From an uncultured Alphaproteobacteria bacterium (lineage in GTDB: Bacteria > Pseudomonadota > Alphaproteobacteria > RF32 > CAG-239), in contig CALXUQ010000011.1 of the NCBI GenBank assembly GCA_944391725.1, forward strand, positions 1 to 40,248: a stretch of 40,248 bases of DNA, in the 5' to 3' direction. Position numbers and translations under genes: made by a program. This document shows positions 23,022-32,335 of this stretch, piece after piece; the first letter of the stretch is position 1; each line of letters opens with the position of its first letter. Under the pieces are notes generated by a model. That model saw only the letters and a list, made by a program, of their open reading frames with translations, was not told where the DNA came from and ran no database searches.

Positions 23022-24527
23022 TTATTTAGGCTGAATGTATTTTATATTTTTAAATATTACCCACAACTTGCCAAAATCAACTTCCCAATCAAACTCTCCT
23101 TGCTTCCATTTATAATCATAATAATAATAAAACACATGGTTATTTAACCTATGACAAATAGGCACATCTTGTTCGGTTTGATAATGAATATAATATATAT
23201 CAATCTGTTTATTAGCTCCAAATTTATTTAATATTTTTAACCAACAGTTAACAGTATCAATTTCAGAAGCAGGCTTATCCTGGCCATTTGGGCGCTCTAA
23301 ATATATAATAGCTATTCTAGAGCTATTGTTAAGATTGGTAAGCAATCGAGAAATTCTTCTATCATATTTTTCTTTAACAGGCAGATATGAATCCTCTATA
23401 TTTGATGAATTTTCAATAAAATCATGATTATAAACAAGCTGTGTTCTTCTATTTTTCCATACAGCGTGTTTAGTATTAGACGTCATAAATTCTAATTCAA
23501 AATCTTCCTTATTGAACCAATCTTTGAAATCATTAATCAAATAATCACATCGACTAACAAAATCTGAGCCCCAAAGCCAGTCAAAAGGATATGATTTATC
23601 TTGAAGGTTACATCTTCGCATCATATCTGTACACGTACAGGCGGAGCCTATTGAAAATAAGAAATCATATTCTCTATCTTTAGGAACAACTGTCTCATTT
23701 TGGGATAACATATTGATAACTTTTTGCAATTGGGTGTTTAACATACTATATTTTTCATCTATAAATGGATTGAGGCTATCAATTTTTTGATTTATTATAT
23801 GACATTCCAAAAAAGAATTTTTCATTTGCTCTAATGAAGATGATGAACAGTAGTTCTTGAGTATGTCAGCAATTACACTCTCATTTCCTAAAAAATTTTG
23901 TATTTTATCTTCCACCATAGAAAAAACAGTATTCATATAAACACAATGCACATTTTCAGACAATTTTTTAATAGTGTACTGATAAGGATTATAATGTAAG
24001 TTATTCATAATGTAGAGAAAATCAATTGTCTTATCTTTAAACTTTTTAGCTAACTTTTCTTGTTGTTGTATTAGATATTCTTCTGAAAAACCTTCATCTC
24101 GAGATAGATAAACAAATAGAACATTATCACTAAAATTCACAGCACTATAAAACCGATCTATACGTCTTTTGTACTTATCTTTAATATTATTAAATACATT
24201 TTCAAAGCTTTGCGTTAAAGGGAAATCATGCTGATATTGTAGTCCTGTTTTTTGATTAACCATCCATCTACAATTTTTGTCCCACCACCGTTGTTCATCA
24301 TTCAAATCAGTGCCATATTCAACAAAGTCTTCTTGATTAAAAAAATCATTAAAATCGTTGCAAATTAAATCAATCTTTCCAGACAGGCCTCCTTTACCGG
24401 CACATTCTAGAATCCCTGCTGACCAGTCAAACGGAAAGCTTTTATTTTGCAAGAAATGCTTACGCAGTATCATTGAGCAAGAACAAAATTGTCCTAGTGG
24501 TATTACTACATCATAGTATTTAATCAT
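23022..24527 (-). CDS. Protein with two tandem DUF1796 (putative papain-like cysteine peptidase) domains
   Basis: The 501-residue chain is an internal duplication. Domain 1 starts VVIPLGQFCSCSMILR with NKSFPFDW, NDFNDFFNQEDF and YQHDF. Domain 2, from about residue 286, starts FLFSIGSACTCTDMMRR with DKSYPFDW, NDFKDWFNKEDF and YNHDF. Each half keeps a C-x-C pair (15/17 and 297/299) and a His-Asp (100/101 and 368/369), plus a later RRI-x-R helix and an I/V-x-Y-L-x-R strand. DUF1796 proteins are annotated as putative cysteine peptidases and often lie in polysaccharide loci; activity is unproven. AAGGAAAA precedes the ATG. The gene is very A+T-rich and sits between the GT8 and acyltransferase genes. 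Confidence 0.8.
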   Translation of the reverse strand: MIKYYDVVIPLGQFCSCSMILRKHFLQNKSFPFDWSAGILECAGKGGLSGKIDLICNDFNDFFNQEDFVEYGTDLNDEQRWWDKNCRWMVNQKTGLQYQHDFPLTQSFENVFNNIKDKYKRRIDRFYSAVNFSDNVLFVYLSRDEGFSEEYLIQQQEKLAKKFKDKTIDFLYIMNNLHYNPYQYTIKKLSENVHCVYMNTVFSMVEDKIQNFLGNESVIADILKNYCSSSSLEQMKNSFLECHIINQKIDSLNPFIDEKYSMLNTQLQKVINMLSQNETVVPKDREYDFLFSIGSACTCTDMMRRCNLQDKSYPFDWLWGSDFVSRCDYLINDFKDWFNKEDFELEFMTSNTKHAVWKNRRTQLVYNHDFIENSSNIEDSYLPVKEKYDRRISRLLTNLNNSSRIAIIYLERPNGQDKPASEIDTVNCWLKILNKFGANKQIDIYYIHYQTEQDVPICHRLNNHVFYYYYDYKWKQGEFDWEVDFGKLWVIFKNIKYIQPK

Positions 24528-24565: not shown

Positions 24566-25675
24566 TTAACCCAAATTTCCCTTGTGAGTTATTTTTAAAA
24601 ATTTTACACAATTAAAGATGTACCAATATTGTGAATTTTGAGAAATTTTTCTTTTTAAAAATGGGACACATCCAAACAAATAAATATAAGTTTTATTCTC
24701 CACATATTTTATTCTGAACAATAACAAATATTTAAATAGATAAATTTTTTTATTTGTGCTTTTAGGAGCTTTATTAGTGATTTGCTTAGAAACGGGTGAC
24801 ATGTGACAATAATAATGCCATACTTCATAAAAATGCTTCACATTTCTATTTAGCCAAGGTTTGTTTCCTCCTGCATAATGGTATATAACTGGAGATTTAA
24901 ACGCTTTTTTAATCTGCTTTTTTGAATAAATTGGAGAAATGTAGGAATCAGTATATGAAATGTCACAAAATACATTGTAAGAAGGATCTAAATATATTAT
25001 GTCATTATGATATTTTTGTCCTAATATTGCATTTAATGTATCTTGATCAGCGTAAGGAGGATTAGGATAACGTTGCAGAAAATCCAAGCATTGCTCAAAG
25101 ATCATCAATTCCTTAGCCTTTTTAACATTAATTAACAAAAAGCCAGCATTAAAATATGGAGCTTTATAGGGATTTTCATTGAACAAAAAAAAGTCAGATA
25201 TATTTGATAGATGCTTTAATAAAGTTTCTTTATGAGCCATTGCAAATATTTCTACAACAACGGCAGCAAGCTTATTAGGGCTTAAATTTTTATATATAGG
25301 AGATAAATCTTTTCCTACAATCATATCTCCATCTATATAAAAACATTTATCAACATCTTCTGGTAAAATTTTGAACAAAAGCAGTCTATAATAAGTAGCT
25401 AAAGAGATATATTGCAGAGTAAAGGTGGATGTATCAACACTTTTAAAATATTCTAAATATTGATCCATAGGCATATTTACAATCTCACATGTTCTATGTT
25501 TTTTTATTTCAGAAACAATATCCAGCTCTGTTTGAGTATATCCTGTTGTAAACAAAAAGAATCTTGGAACATATGATTTGTGTGTGTGTTTTAAGATTGA
25601 AGTCATTAAAACAGTTATTGGTATCACATAATTTTTATCGCTAGTAATAACAAAATTCATATATTTTTTAACCAT
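24566..25675 (-). CDS. Family 8 glycosyltransferase with LFG-repeat tail
   Basis: GT8 enzymes are retaining transferases that move glucose or galactose from UDP-sugars in LPS-type glycans. The 369-residue chain begins NFVITSDKNYVIPITVLMTS. It has the metal-binding DxD as YIDGDMIVG (115-117), YFNAGFLLIN (173-182), the YADQDTLN acceptor-side motif and HYAGGNKPW (265-273), all diagnostic. The last ~60 residues (24569-24748) are a basic, aromatic tail with degenerate repeats such as YIYLFGCVPFLKRK. The start overlaps the upstream HAD gene by 8 bp, with GAAAGGG ahead of the ATG. The base composition is very A+T-rich. The acceptor is unknown. Confidence 0.9.
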   Translation of the reverse strand: MVKKYMNFVITSDKNYVIPITVLMTSILKHTHKSYVPRFFLFTTGYTQTELDIVSEIKKHRTCEIVNMPMDQYLEYFKSVDTSTFTLQYISLATYYRLLLFKILPEDVDKCFYIDGDMIVGKDLSPIYKNLSPNKLAAVVVEIFAMAHKETLLKHLSNISDFFLFNENPYKAPYFNAGFLLINVKKAKELMIFEQCLDFLQRYPNPPYADQDTLNAILGQKYHNDIIYLDPSYNVFCDISYTDSYISPIYSKKQIKKAFKSPVIYHYAGGNKPWLNRNVKHFYEVWHYYCHMSPVSKQITNKAPKSTNKKIYLFKYLLLFRIKYVENKTYIYLFGCVPFLKRKISQNSQYWYIFNCVKFLKITHKGNLG

Positions 25676-27596
25676 TTTTTTCCCTTTCAGTAATGTTAAT
25701 TAATGGAATTCCACAAAGTTGATAAGAAATTTTTGATTCTTTTTTCTTTATTTTCCAAACAGGAAGTCCAAAAATTTTATATATTCGCTTCCTTGAAAGG
25801 GTTAAAATATTTAAAATAGGGATAAATCCAAATAATTTAATATTTAAAATAGAAGCTTTCTCTTTAACTTTTTGTTGTTCATTTGTAAACCACGGTTTGC
25901 AAATAGGTACATACACACTATGATTAGAATCATATCCATGTTTTATTTGAGATATGAAAGGCTTTTCTTCGTCTGTTGGTATTAAAATAAATTTATTAAT
26001 CCATGCTGTAATTTCTTTTGCTGTAAAATCTATCGAAATTTTTCCAAAAAACTTTGTGATAACATGTGCAAATAAAACTGCACCTTCTGAAACTTTTGGA
26101 TATACTTTAATCCGTATTGCTTCTTCTTTAGAAATTTTTTTATAAATGGGTTTCCCTGATTTTATATCTTCAATCGGGGGTTCTGGCGCAGTAATAAGGA
26201 ACTCCATAAAATCCCAGTCTGCAAATTCCCAATTATGACTTATCTGATATGTATTTGTTTCAAATTTACTATTATCAACATGTGGTGAATCTAACAAAAA
26301 CCAATAAAATCCAATGATTTTTTTCTTTAAAGGTTCTAACAAACCCGTCAAAAGACGCTGAGAAGACAAATGAATGCTACATGTATCAACAATAGCAATT
26401 TTTGTATCTTTAATATATGGTTTCAAATAAGATAAATATGTTTCTTTTTTTTGTGTCGCTAATCGTTTGTAAATATTAAAGTATTTTTGTATAAATGATA
26501 TTCCTTCTTGACATGTTGATATGGTTTTAGGGGTATGCTTTTTTAAGATTTTATCTTGCGCGCAATATGTATAAATAATCTTTTTTACAGCTGATATCCC
26601 TTCTTTTTCATCTGTTTTAACCTTTCCCTGATAATTTAAATTGAATAAAATATCAAAAATTCTAGATGCATAAACATAATATGTTTCAAATTTTTTTTCA
26701 TCATCAAGATAATTAAATATTTTTTGTAATGTATATCCATCTCGCGCAACAAATAATACATTTTTAATTTTCTTTTGAAGTAATTCACATTTTAACCATT
26801 TCATGTATCCATATATTACAGGTCCAGCATATTTAAAACCAAATTTTTTCCAATAATTTTGTTCTTCAATTGCATAAATATAAGACAATATTCCTATCAT
26901 AATTGAGCTATTTAATGATTTATTTTCTTCTATAAATGACTTAACTCTAATGTCATCTTGCATAAATTCATCTAGAGGTTTAGGTATATGTATGGCAGAA
27001 ATTCCTAGTGACATCGGTATATTAAAATCACTATGCAAATTATCCCCAATGTGTAAAATATCTTTTGGTTCAATTTGTAAATCTGTTAAAACTAAACGAA
27101 ATAAATTGCCAGAACATTTCATTTTATTATATGTTGATGATACATACAGTTTTTCAATATTTTTATAGCCTTTATCTTGTAATATCTTTAATAAAACATC
27201 TTCTGATAGATACATATCTGAAATAATGTATATCTTTTTTTTATGTTTAACAGCATAATCATATAGCTTTTTCACCTTTGGATTTGCTTGAAGTACTGTG
27301 CTTTCATATGAAATTTCAAGATCTTTAAACCTCTTAAATTTTTCTTCTATTACTTGATAGATATCGTTAATTGATATGTCTTCAAAATCTGGATATAATT
27401 TGCGTGCATTTTGTTCTGCTAAGATGCGTGCTTGTGCAAAACCAGGAGCATTTTCGAGTTTTTCCATATGTTCAAACAAATCAACCGGTCTTACATATGG
27501 TCTAACCAGCAATGTGTCAAAAATGTCAAATGAAACAACTTTGGCCTTATTAATTTGTTTTTTGATTTTTTCTAAAAGTAATTTATCTTTTGCCAT
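25668..27596 (-). CDS. Two-part HAD protein (COG5610 type) with LFG-repeat tail, paralogue 1
   Basis: Residues 1-210 are a HAD hydrolase with nucleophile motif VVSFDIFDTLL (Asp24, Asp27), IISDMYLS and HIGDNLHSDF. Residues 240-560 form a second conserved region with KNVLFVARDGYTLQKIF, IAIVDTCSIH and LITAPEPPI, matching its neighbour throughout. The last ~63 residues (25671-25859) contain repeats like IKLFGFIPIL, YKIFGLPVWKIK and YQLCGIPLINI. Such proteins recur in capsule and LPS loci, but their substrate is not known to me. I chose the ATG at 27596 because GGAGG lies at ideal distance; a start at 27623 would add nine residues. It overlaps the upstream paralogue by 14 bp. Confidence 0.82.
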   Translation of the reverse strand: MAKDKLLLEKIKKQINKAKVVSFDIFDTLLVRPYVRPVDLFEHMEKLENAPGFAQARILAEQNARKLYPDFEDISINDIYQVIEEKFKRFKDLEISYESTVLQANPKVKKLYDYAVKHKKKIYIISDMYLSEDVLLKILQDKGYKNIEKLYVSSTYNKMKCSGNLFRLVLTDLQIEPKDILHIGDNLHSDFNIPMSLGISAIHIPKPLDEFMQDDIRVKSFIEENKSLNSSIMIGILSYIYAIEEQNYWKKFGFKYAGPVIYGYMKWLKCELLQKKIKNVLFVARDGYTLQKIFNYLDDEKKFETYYVYASRIFDILFNLNYQGKVKTDEKEGISAVKKIIYTYCAQDKILKKHTPKTISTCQEGISFIQKYFNIYKRLATQKKETYLSYLKPYIKDTKIAIVDTCSIHLSSQRLLTGLLEPLKKKIIGFYWFLLDSPHVDNSKFETNTYQISHNWEFADWDFMEFLITAPEPPIEDIKSGKPIYKKISKEEAIRIKVYPKVSEGAVLFAHVITKFFGKISIDFTAKEITAWINKFILIPTDEEKPFISQIKHGYDSNHSVYVPICKPWFTNEQQKVKEKASILNIKLFGFIPILNILTLSRKRIYKIFGLPVWKIKKKESKISYQLCGIPLINITEREKNG

Positions 27597-29553
27597 GTTT
27601 ATCCTCCGATTGCTTTTTCCCAACGATTATTTTGTATGAACAGGTGGAACTTATGTTTAGGAAAGCTCCAAAAAATTGTTTAGCTAGATAAGGAAAGAAA
27701 TATATATCTATGCGCTTCATTCCCTTGCTTCTGATGCTGATGGGCTTTAGTAAACATGCAAATAAACTCTGCCATGATGTTTGCCATATTAATTTCTTTA
27801 TCCTCTTTAACGTTTTTTTAGGGTGTAACAAATATTCCCTAAGCGGTATGCTTTCTGAAAACAGCGGAACATAATCTGTGTGGTTGCTATCTTTACCAAA
27901 CTTGATTTTTGACATCTCGCTTATGTCTCGCTTGGTTGGATTCTCAATAAAGCTGTTAATATATGTAACCAGCCCTTCTCCATCTAAAAAAATGTTGTGC
28001 TCACCAAACAGTGCCTGAATATCTTGTACAAATTTTATGGCTCCTGCAGAAATGACCGGATAAATTTGGGCGCGATATTTTTCTGCCGCGTTAGGATTGC
28101 TCTCATATATCGGATTGCCATTTCTATCCATATTCTTTATGGGATACTCAGGACTAGTCAGCAAAAATTCGATAAAATTCCAATTCTTTGTATAAACAGA
28201 TACATCTTCTTGTAATGAGGATTGATTTATAAAACAACTCCTTGAATATATCCCCTTATATGCTTGTAAGATGACTGACCAATATATGCCATGTATCTCT
28301 TTATCTAAGGCTGACTGCAAAAGTTTTTGTGCCGAAAACTCACCGGTAATGGTATCAACCATGCCAATTTTTGCATTTTGGGGTAATTTGCTTGAGATGT
28401 AGCTCCTATAGTTCTTAAGATTTTTTTTGGCTATAGGCAAAAATAAATCAATATGATTTTGAATAAAATTATGCTGCTCTTTGGCTTTTATTAGTTTTTT
28501 AGTTGAAGAAAGCCGCTTTATTTCTGAATTTTCCTGGGAAAAATAATCTAATATTGCACTGGTTTGTTCTATATTACGGCGCGCATAGTCAAGACGGCAG
28601 ATTAAATTTAAAAACCTTGGGGCGTATATATATTCGGTCTTAACACTGGGGCAAAGAAGTGTGAAAACTTTTTGCAATGTATATCCATCTCGCGCAACAA
28701 AACCTATAAAATCAAGTTTTTGTTCTGTTGTCACTTCTTCAATAAAGCGGCAATAGCCATATGCAAGCGGACCTGCGTATAAGTAGCCAAGCTCGCTCCA
28801 GTAGTCAAAACTGTTTTCACCTTTTATGATCTGTTCATGCCAACGATAAGCCAAAACAGATAATAAAATTGATAGACCTAAGTTCTGTTCGGCTTCTCTA
28901 TGTAGCTCATATAAATATTTATGCGCATCTAAAAACTGTTCTAAAACCTGCTTATATAATACGCATTCAATTCCTAATTTGTGTGGAGCTTTATAATCAG
29001 AATGCTTATTGTCTCCGATATGCAACACTTTTTTGGGGGTATCTAAAGAGAAATCTTGCAACACTCTTTTAAATAGATTTCCGGTACCCTTGGTGAGCCC
29101 AATATCTCCGGAAACATAAAGCCTTTCCCATCCATCATAGCTATTTTTCCGAAGAACCTTGGCTATAAAATCTGTCGGAAGGTACATATCAGATATGATG
29201 ACTATGGTTTTATTTTGGGACAAGGCATAGTCATAAACTTGCTTAAGTTCAAAATTTGGACGCAGAACTCTTTCTTCCCAGTTTATTTCAATGTCTTGTA
29301 AAGGCTTAAATGTTTCATCAATATTTTGATATATTTGATCAAAACGAATATCTTCTTTGGAAGGATGCTCTGCTCTGGTTTCTTTTTCGGCGGCTTGACG
29401 GCATATGGAAAAGAATGGCATCCCTTGCAATTGTCCAATATGCGTAAATAAATCCACAGGCTTAACATATGGGCGCAATAACAGTGTATCAAATATATCA
29501 AAGGATATAATCTCAGCTTTATCAATTCTATTTTTAATATTATCCAGCAACAT
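27583..29553 (-). CDS. Two-part HAD protein (COG5610 type), paralogue 2
   Basis: The 656-residue protein is colinear with its downstream neighbour: HAD nucleophile IISFDIFDTLL (Asp19, Asp22), IISDMYLP, HIGDNKHSD, then FVARDGYTLQKVF, KIGMVDTITGEF and LLTSPEYPI. Only the last ~80 residues differ. They are basic and hydrophobic but lack the LFG repeats of the paralogue. I chose the ATG at 29553, with AAGGA upstream; an earlier start at 29595 would overlap the GT32 remnant. It begins 5 bp after the stop of that remnant, which suggests it was once the second gene of the operon. Its base composition is less A+T-biased than the paralogue, so the two may have different histories. Confidence 0.82.
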   Translation of the reverse strand: MLLDNIKNRIDKAEIISFDIFDTLLLRPYVKPVDLFTHIGQLQGMPFFSICRQAAEKETRAEHPSKEDIRFDQIYQNIDETFKPLQDIEINWEERVLRPNFELKQVYDYALSQNKTIVIISDMYLPTDFIAKVLRKNSYDGWERLYVSGDIGLTKGTGNLFKRVLQDFSLDTPKKVLHIGDNKHSDYKAPHKLGIECVLYKQVLEQFLDAHKYLYELHREAEQNLGLSILLSVLAYRWHEQIIKGENSFDYWSELGYLYAGPLAYGYCRFIEEVTTEQKLDFIGFVARDGYTLQKVFTLLCPSVKTEYIYAPRFLNLICRLDYARRNIEQTSAILDYFSQENSEIKRLSSTKKLIKAKEQHNFIQNHIDLFLPIAKKNLKNYRSYISSKLPQNAKIGMVDTITGEFSAQKLLQSALDKEIHGIYWSVILQAYKGIYSRSCFINQSSLQEDVSVYTKNWNFIEFLLTSPEYPIKNMDRNGNPIYESNPNAAEKYRAQIYPVISAGAIKFVQDIQALFGEHNIFLDGEGLVTYINSFIENPTKRDISEMSKIKFGKDSNHTDYVPLFSESIPLREYLLHPKKTLKRIKKLIWQTSWQSLFACLLKPISIRSKGMKRIDIYFFPYLAKQFFGAFLNISSTCSYKIIVGKKQSEDKHGKR

Positions 29554-29558
29554 AATAA

Positions 29559-29813
29559 TTATATCCTTGTTTTGCCGTATAATGTGGGCATGCAAAAATC
29601 TGTATGGTGCAATGTAGACGATGTGTTACATGCACTTAGAAACAAAAGGCCTGAGTGCCTTTGTGATGAAAATTGATTATATGAAAATGTATCTAAGCAT
29701 GAACGAAACTCATAACCGGAAAGATTTTGTTTCCAGCTATGCAGACAACGACGGATAGTTTCGTTCTTCGGACCGTTTCCAAACCAGCAATAATGAATCA
29801 GTTTACGAATCAT
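29559..29813 (-). pseudogene. N-terminal remnant of a GT32 (OCH1-type, DXD) glycosyltransferase
   Basis: The first ~36 residues read MIRKLIHYCWFGNGPK...CLHSW then LSGYEF, the standard opening of bacterial family 32 glycosyltransferases (I-P-K-I-I-H-Y-C-W-F-G). After residue 36 (below about 29706) similarity stops in all frames. The usual YAFVSDYAR and DxD parts are missing, and the frame ends after 84 residues. The rest was probably deleted rather than frameshifted. Translation signals are still good: GAGGAGG stands before the ATG. A short leader-like peptide of some use cannot be excluded. Confidence 0.75.
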
Positions 29814-29848
29814 TACGCCCTCCTCGGAAACGAGCGGGGCTGATGCGC

Positions 29849-29854
29849 ATTATA
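29849..29854 (-). promoter_or_regulatory. -10 element for the glycan operon
   Basis: TATAAT on the minus strand lies 36 bp before the ATG of the GT32 remnant. No strong -35 stands 16-18 bp upstream, so an activator-dependent or weak promoter is possible. Confidence 0.4.
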
Positions 29855-30118
29855 CACCTTGCGGCAAAGCTTTATGAAGAACTTTGCAATTTGTTAAATG
29901 GTTAATAAAAAACCAACTATCCTTATCGGTTTTGAGCCTAAATTATTTAGATTAGGATTACAAGAACTTTTTTGTATTTTTACCCTCCGAGTGTTATTTT
30001 TTTTGAATCTAAAGATGTGTTGACAAATTTTATGTAATTTTTTGATGCACCCTTAATTTTTTCTATTATTAGTTGCATATATACGAACCGTAAAGTTTTA
30101 CTTTATCATAAAATAAAT

Positions 30119-30150
30119 GGTGCCGAATCGATAAACCAAAATCCGACACC
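30119..30150 (-). terminator. Terminator of the GT2-GT8 fusion gene
   Basis: GGTGCCGAAT (30119-30128) pairs with ATCCGACACC (30141-30150) apart from two G-U type positions. It is followed on the minus strand by ATTTATTTTAT. It lies just beyond the stop at 30178. Confidence 0.55.
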
Positions 30151-30177
30151 AATCTGAGGGCAAACTTGCTTATTCTC

Positions 30178-32259
30178 TTAACTGATTTTCATTATCGGCA
30201 GCAGGTTCAAAAACTTAACAAGCTTGTATTTATTTTTATTTTGAACACGGAACATCGGAAGTCCTAACACCGATATAACATCTCGCTTGCCCCGTTTTAT
30301 CTTAATTAAGGGCAAAAACCCCAGCAACTTGTACGCACTTTGAGTGGAGTTATGTTTAATTTTAAGTATCGGGAAAAGCCCAAATAATTTGTAGCTGATT
30401 TTGCTTGCCGTTGGACCGTTTTGCCTTGGGTTATTAAGTTGGTGCGTGACCACATCATAGTATGGAGATGCGCGCAGATATTGCCAATAGACATCGGCAA
30501 AATCACAGTGAAGGTTTTTGGTTGTCCACGGCTTTACTATCATCGCAACCAAAGAGGGTGCACACATAAAATGAAAATAATTTTGCTTGACTTGTTCTAC
30601 CAAATAATCACTTTCTTTTAAGGTATTGGAAACATTATAATAGTTCCATGCTGCCGGAAGTATATATAACTCTTGTTCCGAAAAGAGACTATTTAGAATA
30701 TCTTGATCATGACTATAATAGTCTCTTTCTAAAAGTTTTGCTAGCTTGCAGCGTTTTTCTTCTAAGTCCATTTTGGTCAGATTTAGCAATATTACTCCCG
30801 CATTGAAATAATATTGGCAGCGATGTGGTGGTAAATTTAAGTATGCGGAAAAATATTCATAATAACTACCTGAGAAATTGCACCAAGCAATTTGCTTCTT
30901 GTTGGCGCTTTTTTGCCATACACTGGAATCTATGGCTCCGGCAATGGATTTATTTCCAATATCCATATGATATAGCTTAGAAATGTCATCTAAGAGGAGG
31001 CTGTCGGCATCTATATACAACACGCGGTCAAATTTGCGAAACAACCAGAATATGCCAAGCCGATAATAAGTTGCTCGGGTCAGATGGCGAGTTTCTGAAG
31101 CGCAAATAAACTGCTCGCGCATATCAATAAAGCTGATTTTAACTTTATTGTTTGCTAGGTGATAGAAATTATCCTTATGAACAATACCTCCATCAAGTAT
31201 GTATATATAGGCAGTAACATCCGGCGATATTTTGCTCAAAGCAGATTTAATTGCCACATATAAGTGCGGTTCATAATTGACATCGCTAGCAAGGCAAAGC
31301 ACAATCTTATTCTCTTTTTCTTTATATGGCGGCTCAATAATCGGCAAGTCAGAGAGCTTGTTTATCATATCGCTTTTCGTATATTTAAAAGGTATACGCT
31401 CCACTTTGTCTAACGGATTACGCTGACATAAAATCTTCAATGCTTGAATGAATTTGTTGCTATAATCTCTTGATTTTTTGGTGGAAAAATATTTATATAT
31501 ATCTTCGTTGCTCTTCCAAATGGCGCGGCTTAAAAAATTGCTGTCAGTCGGTGATAATTCGGGAAAATGTCTAGAAATTATATCAGATCTTTCCGATAAA
31601 TGAAGCTGTTGGATTTCTTTGTCCTTACTGCCGCTTAAGCCTCCCAAACGAAAAGCAGCTACAGCGCGATACAGATTCTTTATATTACAAGATTTATCTT
31701 CATAAACGCGCAAGAAAAAATCCCAATCTGCGGCAATTTTATAATGAGTGTTATATTCTCCTAACCTCCGGTGCAAATCTTTTTTATATATAATTCCTTG
31801 ATGGCTGACCATAAAACTAAAATACATTTTATCGTCGAGTTCATAAGGAATGCGACACGAAACTCTTTTGTCTTTGGCGTCATATTCGTTGACACCACAG
31901 ATATAGGCATCGACTTTACCGAAATCTGCTTGTTCCAAAATGGCATTGACTGAGCCATTCAATATATAATCGTCTGAATTGATAAGCCAAATATATTCGC
32001 CTTGCGCCAAGTGTATCCCCTTGTTCATAGCCTCATATATGCCGCTATCTGGCTCAGAAATATATTTGAACCAACCTTTTTTTGCGTATTCGTCCAAAAT
32101 TCTTACACTACCATCTGTTGAACCGCCATCGATAACTAAGTGTTCTATTTGTCCCTGATTTTCTTGATGAATGCTTTCTACACACTGACGAAAAGTCTTC
32201 TCTCGGCCGTTGGAGATAAGATTGTGAGTTGCGGTGATAATGGTGATTAGTGAGGTCAT
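30178..32259 (-). CDS. Two-domain glycosyltransferase: GT2 fused to GT8, with LFG-repeat tail
   Basis: The 693-residue chain has an N-terminal GT2 domain (about 1-230: LITIITATHN, VIDGGSTDGS, YISEPDSGIYEAMNKG, INSDDYIL, DWDFFLR) and a GT8 domain (about 318-580: IVLCLASDVNYEPHL, DxD in YIDADSL at 417-419, YYFNAGVILLN, SHDQDILN). The final GT8 motif is altered: HFMCAPSLVAMIVKPW replaces the compact H-x-x-G-x-x-K-P-W. The last 76 residues (30181-30408) hold about four ~20-residue repeats (YKLFGLFPILKIK, YKLLGFLPLIKIK, SVLGLPMFRV, YKLVKFLNLLPIMKI). I chose the ATG at 32259 with GGGAA upstream; an earlier in-frame ATG at 32328 precedes the GT2 fold by 23 unneeded residues. It is a single-gene unit. 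Confidence 0.87.
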   Translation of the reverse strand: MTSLITIITATHNLISNGREKTFRQCVESIHQENQGQIEHLVIDGGSTDGSVRILDEYAKKGWFKYISEPDSGIYEAMNKGIHLAQGEYIWLINSDDYILNGSVNAILEQADFGKVDAYICGVNEYDAKDKRVSCRIPYELDDKMYFSFMVSHQGIIYKKDLHRRLGEYNTHYKIAADWDFFLRVYEDKSCNIKNLYRAVAAFRLGGLSGSKDKEIQQLHLSERSDIISRHFPELSPTDSNFLSRAIWKSNEDIYKYFSTKKSRDYSNKFIQALKILCQRNPLDKVERIPFKYTKSDMINKLSDLPIIEPPYKEKENKIVLCLASDVNYEPHLYVAIKSALSKISPDVTAYIYILDGGIVHKDNFYHLANNKVKISFIDMREQFICASETRHLTRATYYRLGIFWLFRKFDRVLYIDADSLLLDDISKLYHMDIGNKSIAGAIDSSVWQKSANKKQIAWCNFSGSYYEYFSAYLNLPPHRCQYYFNAGVILLNLTKMDLEEKRCKLAKLLERDYYSHDQDILNSLFSEQELYILPAAWNYYNVSNTLKESDYLVEQVKQNYFHFMCAPSLVAMIVKPWTTKNLHCDFADVYWQYLRASPYYDVVTHQLNNPRQNGPTASKISYKLFGLFPILKIKHNSTQSAYKLLGFLPLIKIKRGKRDVISVLGLPMFRVQNKNKYKLVKFLNLLPIMKIS

Positions 32260-32306
32260 ATGATTATTCCCGGTAGAACTGTGGAGTTTTAGACAATTAT
32301 GAAGAT

Positions 32307-32335
32307 ATGCTACTAAGATTATTTTCAACTTTCAA
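32307..32335 (-). promoter_or_regulatory. Possible promoter of the GT2-GT8 gene
   Basis: On the minus strand TTGAAA (32330-32335) and TAGCAT (32307-32312) are 17 bp apart, 48 bp before the chosen start codon. Confidence 0.35.

Follow-up and report, generated by a model that had tools for sequence, protein, structure and literature searches.

Three enzymes encoded in one gene run of an uncultured alphaproteobacterium, a GT8 glycosyltransferase, a HAD-type protein (HAD1) and a GT2-GT8 fusion, have non-homologous catalytic domains, and a first-pass annotation described a degenerate repeat tail shared by the C-termini of all three. Is this tail real, and what might it do? The window (the whole 40,248-nucleotide stretch of DNA analysed) was searched with a two-unit tail HMM that, against circularity, was trained solely on tails found in other genomes. 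The three tailed proteins scored 48.6, 37.5 and 32.3 bits (E values of 3e-14, 1e-10 and 4e-9), compared with 5.2 bits for the next-ranking ORF of the window and 8.5 bits for the best of 4,200 composition-preserving shuffled C-ends, used as a control. The shared C-terminal repeat on GT8, HAD1 and GT2-GT8 is real, and it lies where the annotation had placed it (Table 1). HAD2 and all other window ORFs, including the DUF1796 protein downstream of GT8, were not picked out by the HMM, in agreement with the earlier statement that the second HAD paralogue lacks the tail. Only two copies in the window, both in GT2-GT8, fit the strict 12-residue motif; the rest are degenerate or lack one residue ('YKIFGLPVWKIK'). 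Between the window and the sister species G003, pN/pS was 0.17 for the GT2-GT8 tail versus 0.27 for the enzyme body, and hence the repeat is constrained and is not decaying low-complexity sequence. Random low-complexity sequence, a possibility raised with the original description, fits neither this constraint nor HMM scores far above those of the shuffles. A role of the tails as recombination substrates was set aside, as those of the window have diverged widely and are constrained.

Two further observations concern the same gene run. The DUF1796 protein apparently contains two domain copies (two Pfam stretches). Between GT2-GT8 and HAD2 (29559-30177), about 580 bp hold no good gene. An ORF of 84 aa in this interval starts 'MIRKLIHYCWFGNGPKNETIRRCLHSWKQNL', which is similar to the beginning of a Gly_transf_sug (OCH1-like) transferase. 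A Pfam search of this ORF gave no match, and it is perhaps a decayed Gly_transf_sug-like gene.

Table 1 Tailed and untailed proteins of the window's gene run, and mini-proteins of relatives carrying the same repeat. Positions without a locus handle are those of the window.
Feature	Position	Strand	Evidence or remark
GT8 glycosyltransferase, 369 aa, tailed	24566..25675	-	Pfam PF01501 E 7.5e-39
GT8 tail, 3 units (YLFKYLLLFRIK / YIYLFGCVPFLKRK / YWYIFNCVKFLKIT)	24569..24748	-	other-genome tail HMM E 4.2e-9
HAD-type protein 1 (HAD1), 651 aa, tailed	25668..27623	-	weak HAD matches, Pfam and NCBIfam
HAD1 tail, 3 units (IKLFGFIPILNI / YKIFGLPVWKIK / YQLCGIPLINIT)	25671..25859	-	other-genome tail HMM
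HAD-type protein 2 (HAD2), 670 aa, same gene run, untailed	27583..29595	-	tail HMM: no match
GT2-GT8 fusion, 716 aa, tailed	30178..32328	-	PF00535 E 1e-20, PF01501 E 9e-24
GT2-GT8 tail, 4 units (YKLFGLFPILKIK / YKLLGFLPLIKIK / ISVLGLPMFRVQ / YKLVKFLNLLPIMKIS)	30181..30408	-	tail HMM E 3.2e-14
DUF1796 protein, same gene run, downstream of GT8, untailed	23022..24527	-	PF08795 E 2.5e-25
Variant mini-protein, 171 aa, three tail units then about 100 residues	L097 2849-3361	+
Acidic-end mini-protein	L134 3940-4179	-	same repeat
Acidic-end mini-protein	L140 520-771	+	same repeat
Acidic-end mini-protein	L141 2980-3183	-	same repeat

The repeat unit is about 20 residues long and reads K-Y-K-L-F-G-F-I-P-L-L-K-I-K, followed by a basic linker; multi-unit tails hold 2-4 copies, and the spacing between units was 20 residues in 79 of 117 cases. 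Based on 205 units of 88 tails, with the window included and two chance viral matches excluded, the unit logo was K/T-[YI]-[KY]-L(84%)-F(81%)-[G67/N20]-F-[IL]-P(93%)-[LIF]-[LFY]-[KST]-I(63%)-[KR]-[KR]-K-x. An AlphaFold2 model of the window's GT2-GT8 tail, built with 13 tail sequences, displayed eight beta-strands, two per unit, at moderate confidence (mean pLDDT 72, pTM 0.49). In the full-length GT8 model, for which the best solved match was LgtC (1g9r, Foldseek E 8.6e-15), the tail appeared as six beta-strands C-terminal to the GT-A fold and separate from the catalytic fold. The other refuting possibility raised with the original description, a tail integral to each catalytic fold, was thus not borne out. 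Judged from the residue pattern, the alternate positions Y2, L4, L11 and I13 would give a wholly hydrophobic face, which must presumably be buried somewhere. The moderate-confidence GT2-GT8 tail model had no Foldseek match in the PDB below E 0.001, and a sequence search of the tail against the PDB returned no chain at E ≤ 10. At E ≤ 1, none of 24,736 Pfam models matched the tail-only sequences, no NCBIfam model spanned the tail when whole tailed proteins were searched, and neither the motif strings nor C-terminal repeats of glycosyltransferases turned up in literature searches. As far as tested, the tail is a new protein family, claimed by no known family.

The tail was detected in 71 of the 101 genomes of the host's family, compared with 3 of 398 genomes phylum-wide (the window's own genome counted) and 21 of 289 class-wide at a loose threshold that lets in chance matches. 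In the genus of one distant holder, that genome alone has the tail. The first-pass annotation had mentioned similar LFG-P-L-K-I tails on other bacterial glycosyltransferases; by these counts, the tail is rare in Pseudomonadota beyond the host's family. A strict DNA pattern run on a species-level genome collection matched eight contigs, one of them from the sister species G003; all carry proteobacterial or alphaproteobacterial MAG labels, save one labelled 'uncultured bacterium'. In viral contigs the exact DNA pattern matched three times, always in a dCTP-deaminase-like protein, and these matches were taken as chance; a tblastn search of plasmids with a synthetic lysine-rich consensus and one real tail found nothing. 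A phage collection gave two weak matches, L118 (MT837642.1) and L119 (MT835966.1), whose ORFs are tailed GT2 proteins. Both are unannotated public 'Bacteriophage sp.' records from human feces and are probably bacterial DNA.

Pfam analysis of 78 tailed proteins bore out the earlier proposal of a mobile module on non-homologous enzymes. GT2 (41) and GT8 (20) were the commonest families, followed by polysaccharide pyruvyl transferase (4), GT4 (4), TupA ATP-grasp (2), FrhB-type (2) and HAD (2) proteins, with single cases of DUF4422, FkbM methyltransferase, hexapeptide acetyltransferase, capsule synthesis protein and aldo/keto reductase. The HMM matches were nearly always C-terminal and on glycan-family enzymes, and in most cases no more than about 10 residues separate the end of the tail from the stop codon. 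Those that are not C-terminal are mostly in fusions, with the tail lying between two catalytic domains: GT2-tail-pyruvyl transferase on contig C21 of the window's own genome, GT2-tail-FkbM, and GT4-GT2-tail-DUF7024. Tailed genes also cluster, with 43 tailed-tailed gene neighbourhoods versus 7.3 expected when genes are placed at random in those regions. Other GT2 genes of the window's own genome (G000 contig C43; L124, L126) end in degenerate variants (HHLLGIKIFTHRQ), one of which is followed by an 11-residue repeat, NELNNKLTQIQ. Their sequences suggest a wider repeat family in which K replaces the conserved P.

In relatives of the host the module also occurs on its own. In genera g3 and g11 of the host's family, it forms 68-71 aa basic proteins of three units that start with ATG, hereafter called hubs. 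These were found in four genomes (G008, 69 aa; G093, 69 aa; G100, 71 aa; G016, 68 aa), share 51-74% mutual identity, carry a net charge of +13 to +16 and are under purifying selection (pN/pS 0.28-0.40). At least one hub gene has a clear ribosome site, GAGGAA. Free hubs adjoin 1-4 enzymes, and in genome G068 the first GT8 of the corresponding operon carries, fused to its C-end, a hub-like segment of three units (65% identical). The HAD1 tail of the window aligned to the free-standing hub of a relative with 38% identity (E 2.4e-6); in the window's own genome no free hub was detected. The extension of the 171-aa variant looks like a coiled coil, and this protein is possibly an adaptor. G008 also encodes an 80-aa mini-protein (L181) without a tailed neighbour. 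A second mini-protein class (the acidic-end entries of Table 1) has acidic C-ends (DEEEEFIDDAVD, EEDDAEDF) and a net charge of -3 to -8, and two of its three members come immediately after an enzyme whose tail has three units.

The same-strand tailed enzymes beside hubs each end in exactly one unit, '[YF]xLFGFIPLLSIEEK'; examples of this tag are YKLFGFIPLLSIEEK (then stop), YYLFDFIPLLSIEEK and YKLFGILPILCIEEK, and the tagged bodies are GT8, GT2, Stealth and GT4-GT2 enzymes. Tags are 15 residues long, with a net charge mostly of -2 to 0 and +2 in one case. A DNA pattern for the IEEK tag had 14 matches in 5 of the 101 host-family genomes, all within hub operons, while the backwards control pattern had 0 matches in the 101 genomes. 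The tag pattern had no match in the window's own genome. Single-unit tails made up 14/14 of the tails beside a hub and 9/65 of those elsewhere (Fisher p 6.6e-10, which ignores shared ancestry and is indicative only). In some tails the HMM undercounts units: on visual inspection, several of the nine non-hub 'single' tails have two or three, an error that weakens the contrast and does not inflate it. The tags keep their peptide despite near-saturated synonymous sites, with the caveat that the pattern itself selects for the peptide. Hub/tag operons are known from two genera only, and the enzymes of some of them share ancestry across operons; the co-occurrence of hubs and tags thus partly reflects shared ancestry.

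On balance, we lean towards the tail being an autonomous beta-hairpin repeat that serves as a docking module for surface-glycan enzymes. The repeat, its mobility, the selection on it, its C-terminal position, the free hub genes and the co-occurring single-unit tags can all be read from the sequences. Docking best accounts for a repeat that comes in three forms (fused tail, free hub and single complementary tag), and the hubs and tags of relatives favour a module that gathers enzymes. Each unit of about 20 residues would form two short strands joined by a G-x-x-P turn, and successive units would line up as a small antiparallel sheet, hydrophobic on one face and mixed and basic on the other. Units would bind each other, with charge giving the specificity; their partners could be the same tail on another enzyme, a free hub or a lone tag with an acidic end. 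Enzymes that act one after another in a glycan pathway would thereby be kept together, probably close to the inner membrane. The same would hold for the multi-unit tails of the window: its genome has no detected hub or tag, so docking there would require the GT8, HAD1 and GT2-GT8 tails to pair among themselves. This lack of a hub and tag speaks against docking, as do the untailed enzymes of the window's gene run (HAD2, DUF1796), the L181 mini-protein without a tailed neighbour and the restriction of hub/tag operons to two genera. The new element, as read from these operons, appears to be a module that is also free-standing or fused to the operon's first enzyme, with single-unit-tagged neighbours.

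Docking pairs of this general kind are known from NRPS/PKS systems, where a C-terminal peptide of <15 aa adds a strand to a beta-hairpin-containing partner, held by salt bridges and a hydrophobic face (PMC9113145). Like the proposed role of the glycan-enzyme tail, these pairs gather the enzymes of one pathway. The likeness extends to short C-terminal tags co-encoded with beta-hairpin hubs (in relatives, not in the window's genome) and to the opposite charge of hubs and tags. In NRPS/PKS systems each junction has a single partner domain with an alpha/beta fold of its own, whereas the glycan tail is a tandem all-beta repeat that is present on both sides, also occurs free-standing and belongs to another pathway. 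No sequence relation to NRPS/PKS docking domains was found with Pfam. By analogy, the module may work like known docking pairs, without detected homology to them as far as tested.

The first-pass annotation had offered membrane attachment beside docking. As a peripheral anchor, the basic, aromatic-rich sheet would bind anionic phospholipids and keep soluble enzymes at the inner membrane, the site of undecaprenyl-linked acceptors. The composition of the tails is in line with this: net charge per 100 residues was +18 for tails and 0.0 for bodies (about +11 for the whole GT8 tail and +15 for that of GT2-GT8), and Asp, Ala and Glu were depleted three- to five-fold (Asp 5-fold, Glu 3-fold). In addition, 0 of 79 tailed proteins had two or more predicted TM segments by simple hydropathy, versus 51 of 510 untailed neighbours. 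LgtC, the nearest structural relative of the window's GT8 and itself a GT8 enzyme, has a C-terminal region with hydrophobic and electrostatic character that is expected to contact the membrane (PMC4202792). The LgtC tail, however, is mainly helical and one enzyme's own, whereas the glycan-enzyme tail is modelled as a beta repeat and found across many folds. Anchoring is also hard to reconcile with 15-residue single-unit tags of near-neutral or acidic charge, with free mini-proteins that have no cargo to anchor, with the acidic charge of the second mini-protein class, and with the tails placed between two catalytic domains in some fusions. We regard an anchor as rather unlikely. Of the two original suggestions, docking has gained independent support from the hubs and single-unit tags of relatives, and membrane attachment would suit the basic charge but not the tags and mini-proteins. 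The two could possibly combine: if hubs sat at the membrane and docked tagged enzymes there, both suggestions would hold.

It is quite improbable that the tail binds glycan and in this way keeps the growing polymer close to the active site. Choline-binding and glucan-binding repeats, like MORN repeats, are tandem beta-hairpin repeats of about 20 residues, and the tail resembles the binding repeats in its period, its hairpin units and its C-terminal arrays on glycan enzymes. Their conserved residues differ from those of the tail, which are aliphatic residues and Lys, not exposed aromatic clefts, and Pfam gave no sequence match to them. Moreover, the tagged enzymes have one unit, and the tail also occurs on an aldo/keto reductase and an acetyltransferase. 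The H. pylori alpha-1,3-fucosyltransferase likewise has C-terminal tandem repeats followed by a basic end, but these are heptad, helical and found in one enzyme family. A functionless, neutral or selfish C-terminal extension spread among glycan genes by recombination would suit the sporadic occurrence among paralogues (HAD1 with, HAD2 without) and the many architectures, but is very unlikely indeed given the constraint on the GT2-GT8 tail and, with the caveat noted above, the retained tag peptide.

How the soluble enzymes of polysaccharide pathways find one another and their lipid-linked substrate is poorly understood, and a small, transferable module that labels a pathway's enzymes, and in some relatives has a free-standing partner, would make this question of enzyme gathering directly testable. 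Docking by such a module would help to assign enzymes to a common glycan, and the module could be a genetically simple connector for glycan engineering. We hold it possible, though short of probable, that the module amounts to a general docking code, in which a beta-hairpin repeat appears as tail, hub or tag, charge picks the partners, and unrelated enzymes are wired into a complex. If so, glycosyltransferases, modifying enzymes and sugar-supply enzymes would be swappable by adding a tag.
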